From positions 9,313-45,697 of the forward strand of contig ONEC01000033.1 in assembly GCA_900316715.1 (NCBI GenBank): DNA of 36,385 bases. The letters run 5' to 3'. Of the stretch, positions 12,671-35,590 are shown one piece after another. Position 1 is the first letter of the stretch. Each line of letters starts with the position of its first letter. The notes under the pieces are model-generated. The model was not told where the DNA came from and searched no databases. It worked only from the letters and a program-made list of their open reading frames with translations. This DNA comes from an uncultured Eubacteriales bacterium (GTDB lineage: Bacteria > Bacillota > Clostridia > Lachnospirales > Lachnospiraceae). A program made the translations under genes and the position numbers.

Positions 12671-13363
12671 ATGAATAGTTTAAGAATTAAGGATATGGCT
12701 GAAAGTGAGAAGCCCGTTGAGAAGCTTCTTACCTATGGCGCAGAAGTTATGTCTGATGCAGAGCTTCTGGCCATCATACTCAGGACAGGCACCAAAGAAC
12801 ATAGTGCTATAGAACTGGCCCAGCTTATCCTTAACAGTAACCCTGTATATAAGGGACTTCCGGGTCTATGCTATACCAATCCGACTGAACTTATGAAGAT
12901 CAGCGGTGTCGGCCGGACCAAAGCGAGTCAGATACTTGCTCTGACAGAGCTTTCCAAGCGGCTTTCCTCTGAAAGCTTTAAGAATACGGTCCAGCTGAAC
13001 AGTTCAGAATCTGTTGCTTCTTATTTTATGGAGAAGACCAGATATCTGACCAGAGAAAGAGTATATGCACTCTTTATGTCTGCATCCAATGCGGTCATTA
13101 AGGAGATGCTGATATCTTCCGGCAGCATAGACAGATCCATAATATCAGTCAGGGATCTTTTTTCGGAGGCACTCAGATGCGATGCCGTATCTATGATAAT
13201 CCTCCATAATCATCCGTCAGGAAGCCCCGAGCCCAGTCTCGCAGATATTAATATATCGAAGAATATCAAGGAAGCAGGAGAGGTATTAGGTATCCGTCTC
13301 CTTGACCATATAATAACCGGAGACAGGGTTTATGTCAGTTTAAAGGAGCGCGAACTGCTTTGA
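12671..13363 (+). CDS. radC: RadC-family JAMM/MPN-domain protein
   Basis: The 230-residue protein has the RadC layout. A helix-hairpin-helix region (ISGVGRTKASQILALTEL) comes first, then a JAMM metalloprotease-like domain with HNHPSGSPEPSLAD, giving zinc ligands His179, His181 and Asp192. Despite the name, a DNA-repair role is doubtful from published work on the family, and the true function is unknown. The ATG follows an inverted-repeat arm and lacks an obvious Shine-Dalgarno sequence, which may mean weak or structured initiation. The N-terminal IKDMAESEKPVEKLL aligns with the usual RadC start, supporting this ATG. It lies next to mreC, as in many Firmicutes. Confidence 0.94.
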   Translation: MNSLRIKDMAESEKPVEKLLTYGAEVMSDAELLAIILRTGTKEHSAIELAQLILNSNPVYKGLPGLCYTNPTELMKISGVGRTKASQILALTELSKRLSSESFKNTVQLNSSESVASYFMEKTRYLTRERVYALFMSASNAVIKEMLISSGSIDRSIISVRDLFSEALRCDAVSMIILHNHPSGSPEPSLADINISKNIKEAGEVLGIRLLDHIITGDRVYVSLKERELL

Positions 13364-13458
13364 AGTTCAATTGGAATAAGGATATCAGTCCTAAATATTT
13401 ATATCTGGCACTATCAGTTATCTGCATAGATATCTGGCACTATCAGTTATCTGCATAG
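13360..13458 (+). pseudogene. mreC: Severed 5' end of mreC (32 codons then premature stop)
   Basis: A TTG at 13360 overlaps the radC stop as TTGA, with AGGAG at 13344-13348. It opens a frame reading LKFNWNKDISPKYLYLALSV, the expected cytoplasmic tail and first half of the MreC membrane helix. The frame ends at TAG 13456-13458 because the second copy of a 29-bp tandem duplication shifts it. Deleting one copy joins codon 23 directly to the GTG at 13458 and gives a 283-residue MreC with a continuous hydrophobic helix at about 13-31. The TAG overlaps that GTG as TAGTG, so reinitiation is conceivable. An assembly error is the alternative explanation. Confidence 0.8.
13401..13458 (+). repeat. Exact tandem duplication, 2 x 29 bp, inside mreC
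   Basis: Bases 13401-13429 and 13430-13458 are identical over 29 bp and directly adjacent; the unit begins ATATCTGGCAC and ends TGCATAG. Because 29 is not a multiple of three, the duplication shifts the mreC frame. The unit itself contains TATCTG twice (13402 and 13420 in copy 1), which could favour slippage. Flanking bases differ on each side, so the duplication is exactly two units. Confidence 0.98.
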
Positions 13459-14240
13459 TGCTTATTGTTGTGTCTGCCTTTAGTCCGGACAGCCTTCGTC
13501 CTATTAAAACTCTGACAGGAAAACTCATTGTTCCTCTTCAGAAGGGCGTAAATAATATCGGAGAATACATAGATGATAAACTTCAGGTATTCGGTGATAT
13601 AAGAGAGCTTAAGAAGGAGAACGAAGAGCTTAAGCAGCAGATCAGTGAATATCAGAAGGAGCTTAATCAGAACCAGGCAGAGCTTACTGAGCTTACAGAA
13701 CTCAGACGTCTCTATGATCTGGATGCTCTCTATCCTGATTATAATAAGACCGCAGCCAGAGTTTTCTCTGTTTCTGGCTCAAAATGGTTTAATGAGTTCT
13801 ATATAGATAAGGGTCTCAATGATAACGTATATGAGAACTGTAACGTGCTCTGTGATAACGGACTCCTTGGAATAGTTACAGAGTCCTATGCTGACTATGC
13901 AAAGGTCAGAGCTATCATTGATGATCATTCCTATATCACTGGAGAGATCGGTGTTAACGGAACTATCTGTACCGTAGAAGGCAGCCTGTCCACTATGGAA
14001 AACGGCTACATCCTTGGTGTGGATATTGATAAGAATGCCAATATTTCTCAAGGCGACAGAGTCATAACCTCAAACGTTTCCGACAGATACTTATACGGAA
14101 TCACCATAGGTTATGTTATTGATATTACTAATGATTCGAATAACCTTACGAAAACTGCCAAGATAGCACCATCCGTTGACTTCTCTGAGGTTAAGGATGT
14201 GTTCGTAATTTTAGACCGTAAGCAGGAAATATCGCACTAA
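13458..14240 (+). CDS. mreC: Rod-shape-determining protein MreC (main body, N-terminal anchor out of frame)
   Basis: MreC links the MreB cytoskeleton to the PBP2-RodA peptidoglycan synthase from outside the membrane. The body shows the conserved stretch from TGKLIVPLQKGVNNIGEYIDDK, a coiled coil at about residues 46-90 (LKKENEELKQQISEYQKEL), and the beta-domain with ARVFSVSGSKWFNEFYIDKG and DDHSYITGEIG. The open frame begins at GTG 13458 and gives 260 residues starting MLIVVSAF, with only half a membrane helix. The missing part lies upstream in another frame because of a 29-bp tandem duplication. It overlaps mreD by one base (TAATG). If translated from the GTG, it would probably lack a membrane anchor. 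Confidence 0.9.
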   Translation: MLIVVSAFSPDSLRPIKTLTGKLIVPLQKGVNNIGEYIDDKLQVFGDIRELKKENEELKQQISEYQKELNQNQAELTELTELRRLYDLDALYPDYNKTAARVFSVSGSKWFNEFYIDKGLNDNVYENCNVLCDNGLLGIVTESYADYAKVRAIIDDHSYITGEIGVNGTICTVEGSLSTMENGYILGVDIDKNANISQGDRVITSNVSDRYLYGITIGYVIDITNDSNNLTKTAKIAPSVDFSEVKDVFVILDRKQEISH

Positions 14241-14746
14241 TGAGACGAGTTATTACTATATTCATTTTAATAATCATATCGTTTCTGTTTCAGACAACGA
14301 TTCTTTCCTTCCATGATGCAGCAGGCTTTTCCCCAAATCTCCTGATGATCATAACCATGTCATTCGGCGTTATGAGAGGTAGACGAGAGGGAATGCTCAC
14401 CGGTCTTGTATCGGGCTTTTTTATGGATGTCTTTTTTAATACCCTGTTAGGCCCATATATGCTGCTTTATATGACTATCGGATACATCAATGGCTTTTTC
14501 CACAAGAGTTTTATTCTGGAAAATGCACTTCTTCCTGTACTCATCATGTTTGCAGATGAGATTACATTTAACACTGTTGTATTCATAGCCACATATCTTG
14601 TGAGAAACAGGACAGATTATCTGTATTTCTTCGTGCATGTCATCATGCCTGAGACAGTAGCTACGATAATCTTTACAGTTATAATCTATAGAATTTACGT
14701 TAAGGTCAATAAATCTCTTAAAAAGAGGGTTAGTGAGAAAAGATGA
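14240..14746 (+). CDS. mreD: Rod-shape-determining membrane protein MreD
   Basis: The 168-residue protein is almost wholly hydrophobic, with about five predicted membrane helices and short basic loops. It matches MreD, the integral-membrane partner of MreC and PBP2-RodA. The stretch FSPNLLMIITMSFGVMRGR followed by MLTGLVSGFFMDVFF is typical of the family. Its start overlaps the mreC stop as TAATG and its stop overlaps the PBP2 start as ATGA, so its translation depends on the upstream mreC frame. The basic tail KSLKKRVSEKR should be cytoplasmic. Confidence 0.9.
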   Translation: MRRVITIFILIIISFLFQTTILSFHDAAGFSPNLLMIITMSFGVMRGRREGMLTGLVSGFFMDVFFNTLLGPYMLLYMTIGYINGFFHKSFILENALLPVLIMFADEITFNTVVFIATYLVRNRTDYLYFFVHVIMPETVATIIFTVIIYRIYVKVNKSLKKRVSEKR

Positions 14747-17595
14747 AACTATTTAAGGATTTCCTTATAGCAGTTAAGGAAATTACATTAGAATATATAA
14801 AGAGCAGGATATTTCCGATCACGCTTCTTATCATCATTCTCTTTATTACATTGGTGAACAGGCTTTTCACTCTGCAGATAAAGCAGGGTAATCAGTATAC
14901 AGAGACTATCGATGTACGTTCGGAGAAGACACTTCAGGTCAGCTCCATTAGAGGAAATATATACGACGTGAACGGTAAGCTTCTCGCTTATAATGAGATG
15001 GCTTATACCCTTACTTACGGAAATGACAGTTCCATATCTGAAACAGCTAAACAGATGTGTATATCTGACAACGAGCTGAAAAACCGTATTATCAAGAATA
15101 CACTGGATATTCTTCATAAGAACGGTGATGATATAGACCTGTCCTTCAATCTTAAGTACAGTAACGGAAAGTATTCCTACAGAGTTAAGGATAGTCAGCT
15201 GAAGCTCTTTCTGAAGGATGTTTATTCAGTTAACTCCGTGGATGAGCTGACAGAAGAGCAGATTAATTCCACACCGGATGAGACCGCGCAATATCTCTAT
15301 AAACTGTTTGGCATCAGCTCGGAATATCCGCCTGAAGAGGCTTATCAGATTCTCAACTGCAGATATAATCTCTGGATGAACCGTTTTAAACAGTACGTTC
15401 CTGTTGAGATAGCTCATAACATATCTGAGAGCAGCCGTGCTTCCATAGTCGAAGCCAAGGATATGCTGCTTGGTATGGATATCGTCGTTACATCTATCAG
15501 AAAGTATAACGATGCAGAGTATTTTGCCCATATCATCGGATACATCGGCAAGGCTTCACAGGAAGACATTGACAGATTAAATGAAATGGATACCGGTAAT
15601 ACCTACGACAGTGAAGATTATGTAGGAAAGTCCGGTGTTGAAAAGATATATGAAGCTCAGCTTCACGGTACAGACGGAACCCAGACTCTCTATGTAGATA
15701 ATCTCGGAAAGGTTCTTGAGGTAAAGGATTCCACTCCGGCTCTTGCCGGCAATGACGTATATCTGTCAATTGACGCTGATCTCCAGATGTACTGCTATGA
15801 CATGCTGGAGCAGGAGATATCCAATATTCTCATAAGTCACCTGGTGGATGTGGCATACGCTCCGGACTACAATTCCAATCATGATATTCCGATAACTGAC
15901 GTATACGCTGCATTTTTCAATAATAATCAGCTGTCGCTTGATCATATGTCCGGTCCTGATGCTTCAGAACTGGAAAGCTCGATATATCAAAGCTTCCTGG
16001 TTCATCAGGATGAAGCTCTGGTCCGTATGGAAGAGCTTCTGGGCGAGAATAACGCACCTCTTATAGATCTTTCACCTGAGTATAAGGACTACTGTGAGTA
16101 TGTATGTGAAATGCTCAGCGAAGATAAGATCTACGACTATGGTAAGCTGGATCTCCATGCACAGCAGTTTGTGGACTATACAAATGAAGCGTCCAGTCTT
16201 CAGGACTTTCTTAAATACTGTATCAGCGTTGAAGCGATAGACATCCGCTCCATAGAAGAGGCCGGAACTTATCATGACAATGATGATATATACCAGATCC
16301 TGAAGGAATATATAATAGAACATCTTAAGGATAATTCAAATTTTAACAACCGTATCCTTACAAATATGATACGTCAGGGTGTTATCTCCGGATATGATGT
16401 TATAGACCTTATCTATGACCAGAGAATCCTTAACAGAGAAGGAGATATAGATTATGCCACACTTAAGAATGGTGGTATGAACAGCTATAACTTCTTCATT
16501 ACTAAGCTTCGAAACAGCGAGATTACCCCTGGTATGCTTAATCTTGAGCCTTGCTCCGGAAGTATCGTTGTTACTGACGTTACCACAGGAGAGGTAAGAG
16601 CTCTTGTAAGCTACCCAAGCTATGATAATAACCATCTTACAAACCGTGTAGATTCTGATTATTATGCATCTCTGCTCAGCAATAATTCGAGTCCGCTCCT
16701 GAACCGAAGCTGTCAGATGCTTTCCGCACCGGGTTCAACATTTAAGATTGTTACAACCGTTGCCGGTGTTAACGAAGGTGTTCTCGGACTTGATGAGTTC
16801 ATAGCCGATCAGGGTGTATTTGAGAAGGCCTATACAAAGCCTCAGTGCTGGATTCACAGAGATTACAACACCAACCATGGTGTTATCAGTATTCCTACAG
16901 CCATTGATGTATCCTGTAACTATTTCTTCTACGAAGTAGGCTGGAGACTGGCTATGGGAAGTGGAAGATATAACGATAATTCAGGTCTTGTAAGACTTAA
17001 TAAATATGCAAGTCAGTTCGGTCTTGGCGATAAGTCAGGCCTTGAGCTGGATGAAGCCGCTCCACATCTGTCAGATATGGACTCGGTTACATCAGCGATC
17101 GGACAGGGTACCAACCAGTATGCTCCTGTTCAGATGGCAAAATATGTTACCGGTATAGCTAACAACGGAACGGTATATGATCTTTCTATCCTGAGCCGTA
17201 TTACGGACTATAACGGAAATATTATACAGGAAGCTCCACATACCATTTATTCTCAGGTAGATGGTTCTGCTGAAATGTGGGATAAGATACGTACAGGTAT
17301 GCGTCTCGTTGTAACGGACGACCTTTCAGAAGATAAGATGCTCAATGGAGTAGGAGTAGCCATTGCCGGAAAGACCGGTACGGCCCAGGTAGGAGAGAAT
17401 CATCCTGCCAACGCACTCTTTATAAGCTATGCTCCATATGAGAATCCTGAGGTTTCGGTTACGGTTATAATCCCTAACGGTTATACATCCCGAAATGCAG
17501 GTCAGCTTGCAGGTTTCGTATATGCATACCTCTATGATAAAGAATCTCTTGTAAATGCAAAGTTTGAGACAAACAAGAGTTCATCCGGAGATTAA
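14743..17595 (+). CDS. mrdA: Class B penicillin-binding protein 2 (elongasome transpeptidase)
   Basis: PBP2 cross-links peptidoglycan during cell elongation, working with RodA. The 950-residue product has one N-terminal membrane helix (about 23-43). The dimerisation/pedestal domain begins at RGNIYDVNGKLLAYNEM and includes HIIGYIGKASQEDI and YVGKSGVEKIYE. The transpeptidase domain starts near CSGSIVVTDVTTGEVRAL. Active-site motifs are STFK with Ser665 and Lys668, SCN with Ser724, and KTG with Lys877. A predicted helical insertion of roughly 250 residues (about 352-607) sits between pedestal and catalytic domain, making this protein much longer than E. coli PBP2. It is placed after mreD (ATGA overlap) and just before rodA. 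Confidence 0.95.
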   Translation: MKLFKDFLIAVKEITLEYIKSRIFPITLLIIILFITLVNRLFTLQIKQGNQYTETIDVRSEKTLQVSSIRGNIYDVNGKLLAYNEMAYTLTYGNDSSISETAKQMCISDNELKNRIIKNTLDILHKNGDDIDLSFNLKYSNGKYSYRVKDSQLKLFLKDVYSVNSVDELTEEQINSTPDETAQYLYKLFGISSEYPPEEAYQILNCRYNLWMNRFKQYVPVEIAHNISESSRASIVEAKDMLLGMDIVVTSIRKYNDAEYFAHIIGYIGKASQEDIDRLNEMDTGNTYDSEDYVGKSGVEKIYEAQLHGTDGTQTLYVDNLGKVLEVKDSTPALAGNDVYLSIDADLQMYCYDMLEQEISNILISHLVDVAYAPDYNSNHDIPITDVYAAFFNNNQLSLDHMSGPDASELESSIYQSFLVHQDEALVRMEELLGENNAPLIDLSPEYKDYCEYVCEMLSEDKIYDYGKLDLHAQQFVDYTNEASSLQDFLKYCISVEAIDIRSIEEAGTYHDNDDIYQILKEYIIEHLKDNSNFNNRILTNMIRQGVISGYDVIDLIYDQRILNREGDIDYATLKNGGMNSYNFFITKLRNSEITPGMLNLEPCSGSIVVTDVTTGEVRALVSYPSYDNNHLTNRVDSDYYASLLSNNSSPLLNRSCQMLSAPGSTFKIVTTVAGVNEGVLGLDEFIADQGVFEKAYTKPQCWIHRDYNTNHGVISIPTAIDVSCNYFFYEVGWRLAMGSGRYNDNSGLVRLNKYASQFGLGDKSGLELDEAAPHLSDMDSVTSAIGQGTNQYAPVQMAKYVTGIANNGTVYDLSILSRITDYNGNIIQEAPHTIYSQVDGSAEMWDKIRTGMRLVVTDDLSEDKMLNGVGVAIAGKTGTAQVGENHPANALFISYAPYENPEVSVTVIIPNGYTSRNAGQLAGFVYAYLYDKESLVNAKFETNKSSSGD

Positions 17596-33352: not shown

Positions 33353-35410
33353 TTATTTTTCGTAAACTGCTGTAATAAAACAGTTATTCGGTTCCTTCTC
33401 AATACCGAGTCGTGATTTAATGTCGGAAGAAGTCACGTCTACCCATTCATTTTCTATCAGAATATATGATTCTCCGGGACTCGATCCTGTTATATATGGA
33501 TCGATTATAGATTCTACACCGGGGCCTTCTACGGCAAGTTCATTATCAACAGTAACAGCCACTGCACATGATGATACGGTCTGTGGCTCGCTTAACTCGA
33601 TAAGATGATATCCCTTGGCATAATAGAACGCTTCTTCCGAATATAAAAGCTCTGAAAAATCGTTGTTATATATTTCGACCTTAACATTTGTCTTTGGTTC
33701 TACGGTTACAAATCCGACCGCATTCAAAGTTCCTTCATGATTGAATACACTCGCACCTGTGGTCGTATCTCCTGTAGACACTGTAAGATTTGAGGAATAA
33801 GCATGTCCCAATACTTCCGCATCCGCTTTTTTTAGGTCAAAACAGCTCACTTCATAAAGCAGTGAGTCATAAGAAATCCAGTAAAATCCACCTTTACTCC
33901 ATTTATCTCCATGACTGTTCTGGGCAAGCCATGCACCGTCATGCTCGGGATTATCATGAAAATTATCCTTACTGTAATTATCGTTCCATCCGACTATTAC
34001 AACCGAATGATCGTCATCAGTATTCGGAAGTGCATATAGAGTCATATAACCTTCCGGTCCGGGATATACTCTATCCGATATTCCGATCTGAACAGCTCCG
34101 TACTTCTGCACGGCTCTCTTAATATCTTCAACTGAAGCACCCTCATACATGTTCATATCTTTAAGAATGTGTCCATCATAACCATAAGCAAAAAGCCTGC
34201 AGAGATCATAGGTACGACCGCCTATCTCAAATTCATCCATATAATCAGGCAGTATTCTTCCTTCAGGCCACCTATCCCGGTCACCGATACAATTTGTAAC
34301 TATATCATCTGATGGATAGAGAAGCCTGTCACCGTAAAGCTTTTGGTTATTTATATCAATAGTCGTACAGCATGCATACGCCCAACAGTCGCCTCGTAAC
34401 TGAGACTTAATCTCTGTCACACATCCGTCTTCAAGAGATGAATATTCTTCCGGCAGATTGCCCTCCGCAATTTCATAATCTATACCGTTTTCCACAGCAT
34501 ATTCATAAGCCGCAGATTGAGCGGAACATATGATCTTTATATTCTCTTTTCCGATTGCATTATCCTCTATGAACTGTACGCTGTCCGGTATAGTTATCAC
34601 TTCCAGAGAATCACAGGAATCAAAGGCCAGAGCCTTAATATTTCTTACACCGTCTTCTATTACCACGGATTTAAGATTGTCGCAATCCCAATATGCAGCA
34701 AACTCAATTGTATTTATATTTCCGCCAATAGTTACATCAGTTATCTTATCATTATCCACAAAGGCCATATCAGCGACCTTGCTTCCCTTATCGATAATGA
34801 CACTTCCTTCTGCTCCTCCTCCGCCTATAACTCTGTCGGATATTACCGCATAGGTTTCTCCGTCTTTCACTTCTTCAAGCCACGGAGTTCCCTCGAAGCT
34901 GCTTCCGTTAAGTTCTGTCATATCCACATTAATGTTTACATTTGCAAGAGATGAACATCCAGAGAAAGAGCCTCTCGTATTCTGCGCATCAGCGGTTCCG
35001 ATCTTTTCAACGCTGTCGGGAATATCAATTTCTGTAAGAGCTTTACAGTCCCTGAAAGAACCGGACCATATCCACTTTATGCCGTCACCTAAAATAACAG
35101 ACTTTAGATTCGGCATTTCGATAAATGAATTATATATAAGTTCAACCGAACCGGGGATTTTCACCGATTCTATTTTTTCCTTTGTGCTTTTATGAGCATA
35201 TTCAAGTGTATTTACCTCAGTAACCGGCTTACCGTTTATTTCGGAGGGAATTACCAGATTCTTAGTTCTTCCGTTATAACCCTGTATTACAATATTTCCC
35301 TCAGTATTTTCAGTATATTTCCATTCATTTACTATATACCCCCTATAAAAAAAGAATCCGGCTACTCCTAGGAATAAAATAGCCAGAAATAATATTATAA
35401 CCTTCTTCAT
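33353..35410 (-). CDS. Leucine-rich-repeat surface protein with papain-like (C1) peptidase domain
   Basis: The 685-residue protein has an N-terminal hydrophobic signal/anchor (about 4-22). A BspA-type leucine-rich-repeat region follows at about 38-300, with units such as LTEIDIPDSVEKIG and LEVITIPDSVQFIE. A C1A cysteine peptidase domain comes next: Gln337, Cys342 (QLRGDCWAYA), His468 (DDHSVVIVGW) and Asn498 (AQNSHG). The C-terminal 150 residues resemble the lectin-like beta domain often fused to such peptidases in Lachnospiraceae. No LPXTG motif is seen, so anchoring is probably by the N-terminal helix. Its start codon and ribosome site are duplicated by a 53-bp tandem repeat. Extracellular protein degradation or adhesion is likely; the substrate is unknown. 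Confidence 0.9.
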   Translation of the reverse strand: MKKVIILFLAILFLGVAGFFFYRGYIVNEWKYTENTEGNIVIQGYNGRTKNLVIPSEINGKPVTEVNTLEYAHKSTKEKIESVKIPGSVELIYNSFIEMPNLKSVILGDGIKWIWSGSFRDCKALTEIDIPDSVEKIGTADAQNTRGSFSGCSSLANVNINVDMTELNGSSFEGTPWLEEVKDGETYAVISDRVIGGGGAEGSVIIDKGSKVADMAFVDNDKITDVTIGGNINTIEFAAYWDCDNLKSVVIEDGVRNIKALAFDSCDSLEVITIPDSVQFIEDNAIGKENIKIICSAQSAAYEYAVENGIDYEIAEGNLPEEYSSLEDGCVTEIKSQLRGDCWAYACCTTIDINNQKLYGDRLLYPSDDIVTNCIGDRDRWPEGRILPDYMDEFEIGGRTYDLCRLFAYGYDGHILKDMNMYEGASVEDIKRAVQKYGAVQIGISDRVYPGPEGYMTLYALPNTDDDHSVVIVGWNDNYSKDNFHDNPEHDGAWLAQNSHGDKWSKGGFYWISYDSLLYEVSCFDLKKADAEVLGHAYSSNLTVSTGDTTTGASVFNHEGTLNAVGFVTVEPKTNVKVEIYNNDFSELLYSEEAFYYAKGYHLIELSEPQTVSSCAVAVTVDNELAVEGPGVESIIDPYITGSSPGESYILIENEWVDVTSSDIKSRLGIEKEPNNCFITAVYEK

Positions 35411-35478
35411 TATGCCTTCCCCCTTAATAAAATAGCCAGAAATAATATTATAACCTTCTTCATTATGCCTTCCCCCTT
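35373..35478 (-). repeat. Exact tandem duplication, 2 x 53 bp, over the start of the LRR/C1 peptidase gene
   Basis: Bases 35373-35425 and 35426-35478 are identical over 53 bp and directly adjacent. Each unit contains, on the - strand, the AAGGGGGAAGG ribosome site, the ATG and the first 12 codons. The unit length is not a multiple of three. The copy nearer the gene is in frame with the full protein; the distal copy starts a short ORF. Confidence 0.98.
35410..35463 (-). CDS. 17-residue leader ORF made by the duplication, overlapping the peptidase start
   Basis: From the distal duplicated start (ATG at 35463-35461) the frame reads MKKVIILFLAILLRGKA and stops at TAA, which overlaps the ATG of the main gene as TAATG. 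It has the same strong ribosome site as the main gene. If translated, it would couple translation of the peptidase to a hydrophobic leader peptide. It is a by-product of duplication, and whether it has any function is unknown. Confidence 0.5.
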   Translation of the reverse strand: MKKVIILFLAILLRGKA

Positions 35479-35497
35479 TGTGCCTTCACTTATCCCA

Positions 35498-35503
35498 TTA
35501 TAT
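35498..35503 (-). promoter_or_regulatory. Candidate -10 of the LRR/C1 peptidase gene
   Basis: On the - strand TATAAT directly follows the T-run of the upstream gene's terminator (TTTTTTTATATAAT). A -35 at the usual distance would lie in the terminator stem (CTGGAG), which is poor. Placement about 35 nt before the distal duplicated ATG is sensible. Confidence 0.35.
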
Positions 35504-35546
35504 AAAAAAATCCTCCGAATCTCCAGTAAATTCAGAGACTCGGAAG
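35504..35546 (-). terminator. Hairpin terminator of the methyltransferase gene
   Basis: On the - strand a stem of about 10 bp is formed by TTCCGAGTCTC (35546-35536) with GAGATTCGGAG (35523-35513), including one G-T pair, and is followed by seven Ts. It lies about 45 nt after the methyltransferase stop. Confidence 0.75.
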
Positions 35547-35590
35547 AAAAAATTAATATACGATATCTATAAGAGATTTCTAATAAATCC

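Follow-up and report, generated by a model that had tools for sequence, protein, structure and literature searches.

Assemblies produced by IDBA-UD and CLC have been described in which Ns were inserted despite overlapping flanks and duplicate sequence was left behind, and perfect end overlaps in IDBA-UD assemblies often equal the largest k in length (Chen et al. 2020, PMC7111523). Genuine tandem duplications are known from the pneumococcal capsule genes (Waite et al. 2001, 2003, cited in PMC4022640), where phase variation has been attributed to spontaneous duplication of sequence within an open reading frame, which breaks the frame. As for mreC, Tn-seq and CRISPRi reportedly show this gene to be essential in C. 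difficile, although the same source cautions that non-polar deletions are required (PMC12548448). Reports cited there describe MreC as not needed in S. aureus and as dispensable in pneumococci that lack PBP1a. Defects of mreC in E. coli are bypassed by alterations of PBP2 or RodA (PMC6207328), which provides a possible parallel for how a broken mreC could be tolerated.

Here we consider a stretch of 36,385 nucleotides from a draft genome (further referred to as the window), in which mreC is interrupted by an exact tandem repeat of a 29-bp unit. The extra copy is probably an assembly error of the unmerged-overlap kind. It would share with the error described by Chen et al. 2020 (PMC7111523) an exact repeat shorter than k at a join. 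In contrast to the described cases, where Ns remain between the copies, no Ns separate the copies of the 29-bp repeat or of two further repeats of 53 and 62 bp. The likeness to the capsule genes is limited to the broken reading frame: two states in one population are not seen for mreC, a constrained cell-shape gene.

The mreC locus as assembled

The features of the locus and the other long repeats discussed below are listed in Table 1. Both adjacent 29-bp units of the original prediction were recovered as exact copies. Allowing up to 3 mismatches, we found no other place matching the unit in the whole 2.84-Mb assembly; hence chance is not a credible origin of the pair and was ruled out. The repeat tract is exactly 58 bp long, and neither flanking base extends the match.

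Table 1. Positions of the mreC reading frames, neighboring genes and exact tandem repeats (window coordinates unless another stretch is named).
Feature	Position	Strand	Remarks
radC, intact, directly 5' of mreC	12671..13363	+	PF04002, TIGR00608
mreC upstream frame, tail and first part of helix, 32 residues	13360..13458	+	TTG start; stop TAG 13456-13458
29-bp unit, copy 1	13401..13429	+	exact match to copy 2
29-bp unit, copy 2	13430..13458	+	identical to copy 1; either copy could be the extra one
mreC downstream frame, 260 aa, MreC barrel core	13458..14240	+	GTG start; PF04085
mreD, directly 3' of mreC	14240..14746	+	PF04093, TIGR03426
Second exact tandem duplication, 2 x 53 bp	35373..35478	.	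conflicts with contig C35
Third exact duplication, 2 x 62 bp	L115 11054-11177 (C127)		between likely genes
Exact tandem repeat, 2 x 28 bp	L206 8840-8930 (C133)		1 bp flanking homology

Translation from TTG 13360 indeed halts after 32 codons, and deletion of one unit from the interval 13360–14240 leaves, by arithmetic, the 283-residue MreC proposed earlier. The TTG overlaps the radC stop codon as TTGA, and the motif AAAGGAG is located 5' of it. The tail encoded by the upstream frame is the same in two relatives, L003 and L054 (see below). The stop codon of this frame overlaps the downstream GTG as TAGTG, and the open reading frame beginning at this GTG matches the Pfam MreC model with E = 1.6e-36 and 125.7 bits (cut-off 28). 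The downstream frame is open from position 13395, and in this frame copy 2 is read as YLALSVICIV; thus much of the MreC helix is encoded here too. No start codon (ATG, GTG or TTG) is present in the downstream frame before GTG 13458. In the assembled sequence the frame linking the tail and the membrane helix to the barrel core is broken. No slippery heptamer (X XXY YYZ) for −1 frameshifting was found between 13386 and approximately 13461, and neither the window nor the stretch L115 has an Rfam match at gathering thresholds. The genome was also searched for a second mreC using the Pfam model, protein and DNA searches, and none was found.

Profile matches show that the neighbors mreD, a PBP2 homologue and a RodA homologue are all present. 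mreB is not adjacent to mreC, the best MreB match being located on contig C78. The PBP2 homologue (window 14743–17595) has 950 aa and greatly exceeds the 593-position TIGR03423 model; a long stretch separates its dimerisation match (67–327) from its transpeptidase match (606–921).

mreC in related genomes

We searched 36 genomes of the same genus for MreC. Matches were obtained in 33 genomes, and the 29 loci returned (L003–L031) were all inspected. In each of the 29 loci mreC contains a single copy of the unit and an unbroken frame running through the tail and one helix; the tail is of the MKFNYKKDISPKYL type, with variation. Exact tandem copies with a period of at least 15 bp were absent from these loci. 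The same-genus matches outside the inspected loci (G003, G023, G027 and G030) are open frames of 272–289 aa with no inner stops. The nearest relative found is the metagenome-assembled genome of Lachnospiraceae bacterium UBA2864 (L054), whose MreC is 97% identical; there the 29-bp unit also occurs once and the frame is open. The expectation that MreC of these bacteria begins upstream with a helix thus holds in 29/29 inspected same-genus loci and in UBA2864. A family whose MreC begins at the GTG was ruled out by the upstream start and helix in the 29 loci.

The mreC genes of the window and UBA2864 differ in 127 of 777 bases, yielding differences in only 6 of 259 residues, with dN of 0.012–0.013 and dS from 1.2 (YN00) to 2.0 (NG86). 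Judging by these values, MreC is under strong constraint; hence a real break of mreC would have to be very recent.

Joins and further duplications in the draft assembly

The draft assembly consists of 195 contigs with N runs. The window, which forms the end of contig C140, begins directly after a run of 41 Ns; no partner contig was found at the far end of C140. The stretches of this assembly (G000) that were read contain eight short N runs (10–59 N). One of them, in L089, is flanked on both sides by the same 23 bp, which is an unmerged overlap, whereas no exact overlap was found across the other seven. This N run exhibits the error described by Chen et al. 2020 (PMC7111523) with the Ns still between the copies. 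When the ends of the fetched stretches were compared with the sample, three cases of overlap with other contigs measured 97, 99 and 100 nt, and a fourth measured 24 nt. The 100-nt match to contig C35 is compatible with k = 100, and also with k = 99 and one further base matching by chance.

Contig C35 bears on the second exact duplication in the window, that of 53 bp. It is identical to window 35327–35426 over the shared 100 nt, and beyond them it carries one 53-bp unit together with the upstream flank, a part that is 97% identical to window 35426–35575. In UBA2864 the 53-bp unit is single-copy, and so is the 62-bp unit duplicated on C127. The latter duplication is probably an assembly error of the same kind. 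Each of the 29-, 53- and 62-bp tracts comprises exactly two units and has no flanking homology. The 53- and 62-bp loci were also sought in nine same-genus genomes, where the recovered pieces do not span both units and are thus uninformative about the copy number.

The 53-bp repeat duplicates the ribosome-binding site and start region of the ORF 33353–35410 (minus strand), which has LRR_5, papain-family and lectin-like matches.

No such contig contradicts the two-copy form at mreC. When the whole assembly was searched at the DNA level with window 12900–14000, that place alone matched; mreC occurs in the assembly in the two-copy form and in no other.

Origin of the extra 29-bp copy

An assembly error could have arisen as follows. 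The graph would break, perhaps where strains vary or coverage is thin, and two contigs sharing a shorter exact overlap would then be set end to end with the overlap unmerged and hence written twice. At mreC the overlap would be 29 bp, which would shift the frame; the organism itself would carry a single unit and produce an ordinary MreC from TTG 13360. The contig ends sharing 97–100 nt suggest a k-mer graph assembler with k near 100. Several lines of evidence point to this origin. The extra copy is absent from the close relatives, that is, from all 29 inspected loci and UBA2864, and the same error is seen elsewhere in the assembly, both in the 23-bp overlap at one of the eight N runs and in the 53-bp repeat conflicting with C35. 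From the latter case we infer an error of this kind behind the 29-bp copy. The strong constraint on MreC, the single 62-bp unit in UBA2864 and the lack of flanking homology in all three repeats also count in favor of an assembly error. On the other hand, the tract 13401–13458 is continuous and contains no N run, and the lack of a conflicting contig at mreC likewise favors a real allele; moreover, a real 58-bp tract would be easily resolved at k near 100. C35 may also represent a strain variant, the strain of the window truly having two copies at 35373–35478. Finally, such repeats are rare: with a period of at least 25 bp and flanking homology of at most 1 bp, there are four in approximately 1.39 Mb read, and their excess over the controls described below is not significant. 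The original prediction admitted an artefact and gave it the same odds as biology; the evidence shifts these odds toward an assembly error.

A real two-copy allele in any form, the switch discussed below included, seems unlikely to us. In its simpler and still rather improbable version, mreC was recently broken by a tandem duplication that arose spontaneously in the strain or population sequenced, and loss of MreC function would then be expected. Such a break might be tolerated through weak reinitiation at GTG 13458, through a suppressor in PBP2 or RodA of the kind that bypasses mreC defects in E. coli, or if a minor allele became the consensus. The TAGTG overlap of stop and start could permit coupling, but visual inspection shows nothing resembling a Shine-Dalgarno sequence ahead of the GTG, and the start of its product is weakly hydrophobic, with the best 19-residue mean of 0.9 compared to 2.67 in UBA2864. 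Furthermore, the gene is strongly constrained and unbroken in all relatives inspected, it is reported to be essential in C. difficile, and the edges of the repeat lack microhomology. A different version, suggested by the original prediction, is a reversible slippage switch of cell shape, in which this Lachnospiraceae-related species would gain and lose the 29-bp unit and thereby alternate between rods with one copy and rounded cells with two. An exact tandem repeat in an open frame whose period is not divisible by three could revert by recombination or slippage, and the pneumococcal capsule genes provide a precedent. Nevertheless, we found no positive support for the switch and regard it as highly improbable. 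The assembly contains the two-copy form alone, and the two states were not seen together in any population; the repeat is kept neither in the 29 same-genus loci nor in UBA2864, and its tract of exactly 58 bp has no flanking homology to seed repeated gain. The switch is also weakened by the similar exact duplication in the window that conflicts with another contig of the assembly. Among the matches listed by a literature search for mreC and phase variation, no title or opening of an abstract described an mreC switch based on tandem duplication.

A real allele would provide an unusual example of a reversible cell-elongation defect, and one that is open to testing. If the extra copy is an assembly error, it illustrates that short exact tandem copies in draft genomes can mimic broken essential genes or phase switches. 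The 53-bp repeat and C35 suggest a simple warning test to be applied before reading biology into such alleles, the warning signs being partner contigs, unmerged overlaps across N runs and repeats without flanking homology.

The last of these signs was compared between the source assembly and control stretches of three genomes (G007, G005 and G002; 774,436 bases). Exact repeats with a period of at least 25 bp were counted, and flanking homology of at most 1 bp was taken as none. One row was kept per place, overlapping rows with other periods being dropped; the 53-bp repeat also appears in L035, which covers this place of the window, and it entered the count a single time. Flanking homology was at most 1 bp in four of the nine long repeats of the source assembly (29, 53, 62 and 28 bp) and in none of the five control repeats, an excess that is not significant. 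The repeats of the source assembly other than the 29-, 53- and 62-bp ones extend by 1, 2, 4, 5, 6 and 11 bp, and the control repeats by 4, 9, 9, 23 and 51 bp. In a further 309,380 bases of loci (L003–L031, L054–L079 and 11 others, in part from the same genomes) no exact tandem copy with a period of at least 15 bp was found. Three of the four repeats lacking flanking homology in the source assembly fall outside any likely gene body. The 28-bp repeat on C133 appears by eye to be preceded by a degenerate third copy, and it was dropped as evidence because it looks like an ordinary degenerate array; the ORF upstream of it is presumably ftsH-like. Smaller repeats, with periods of 10–24 bp, are present in the source assembly and the controls alike.
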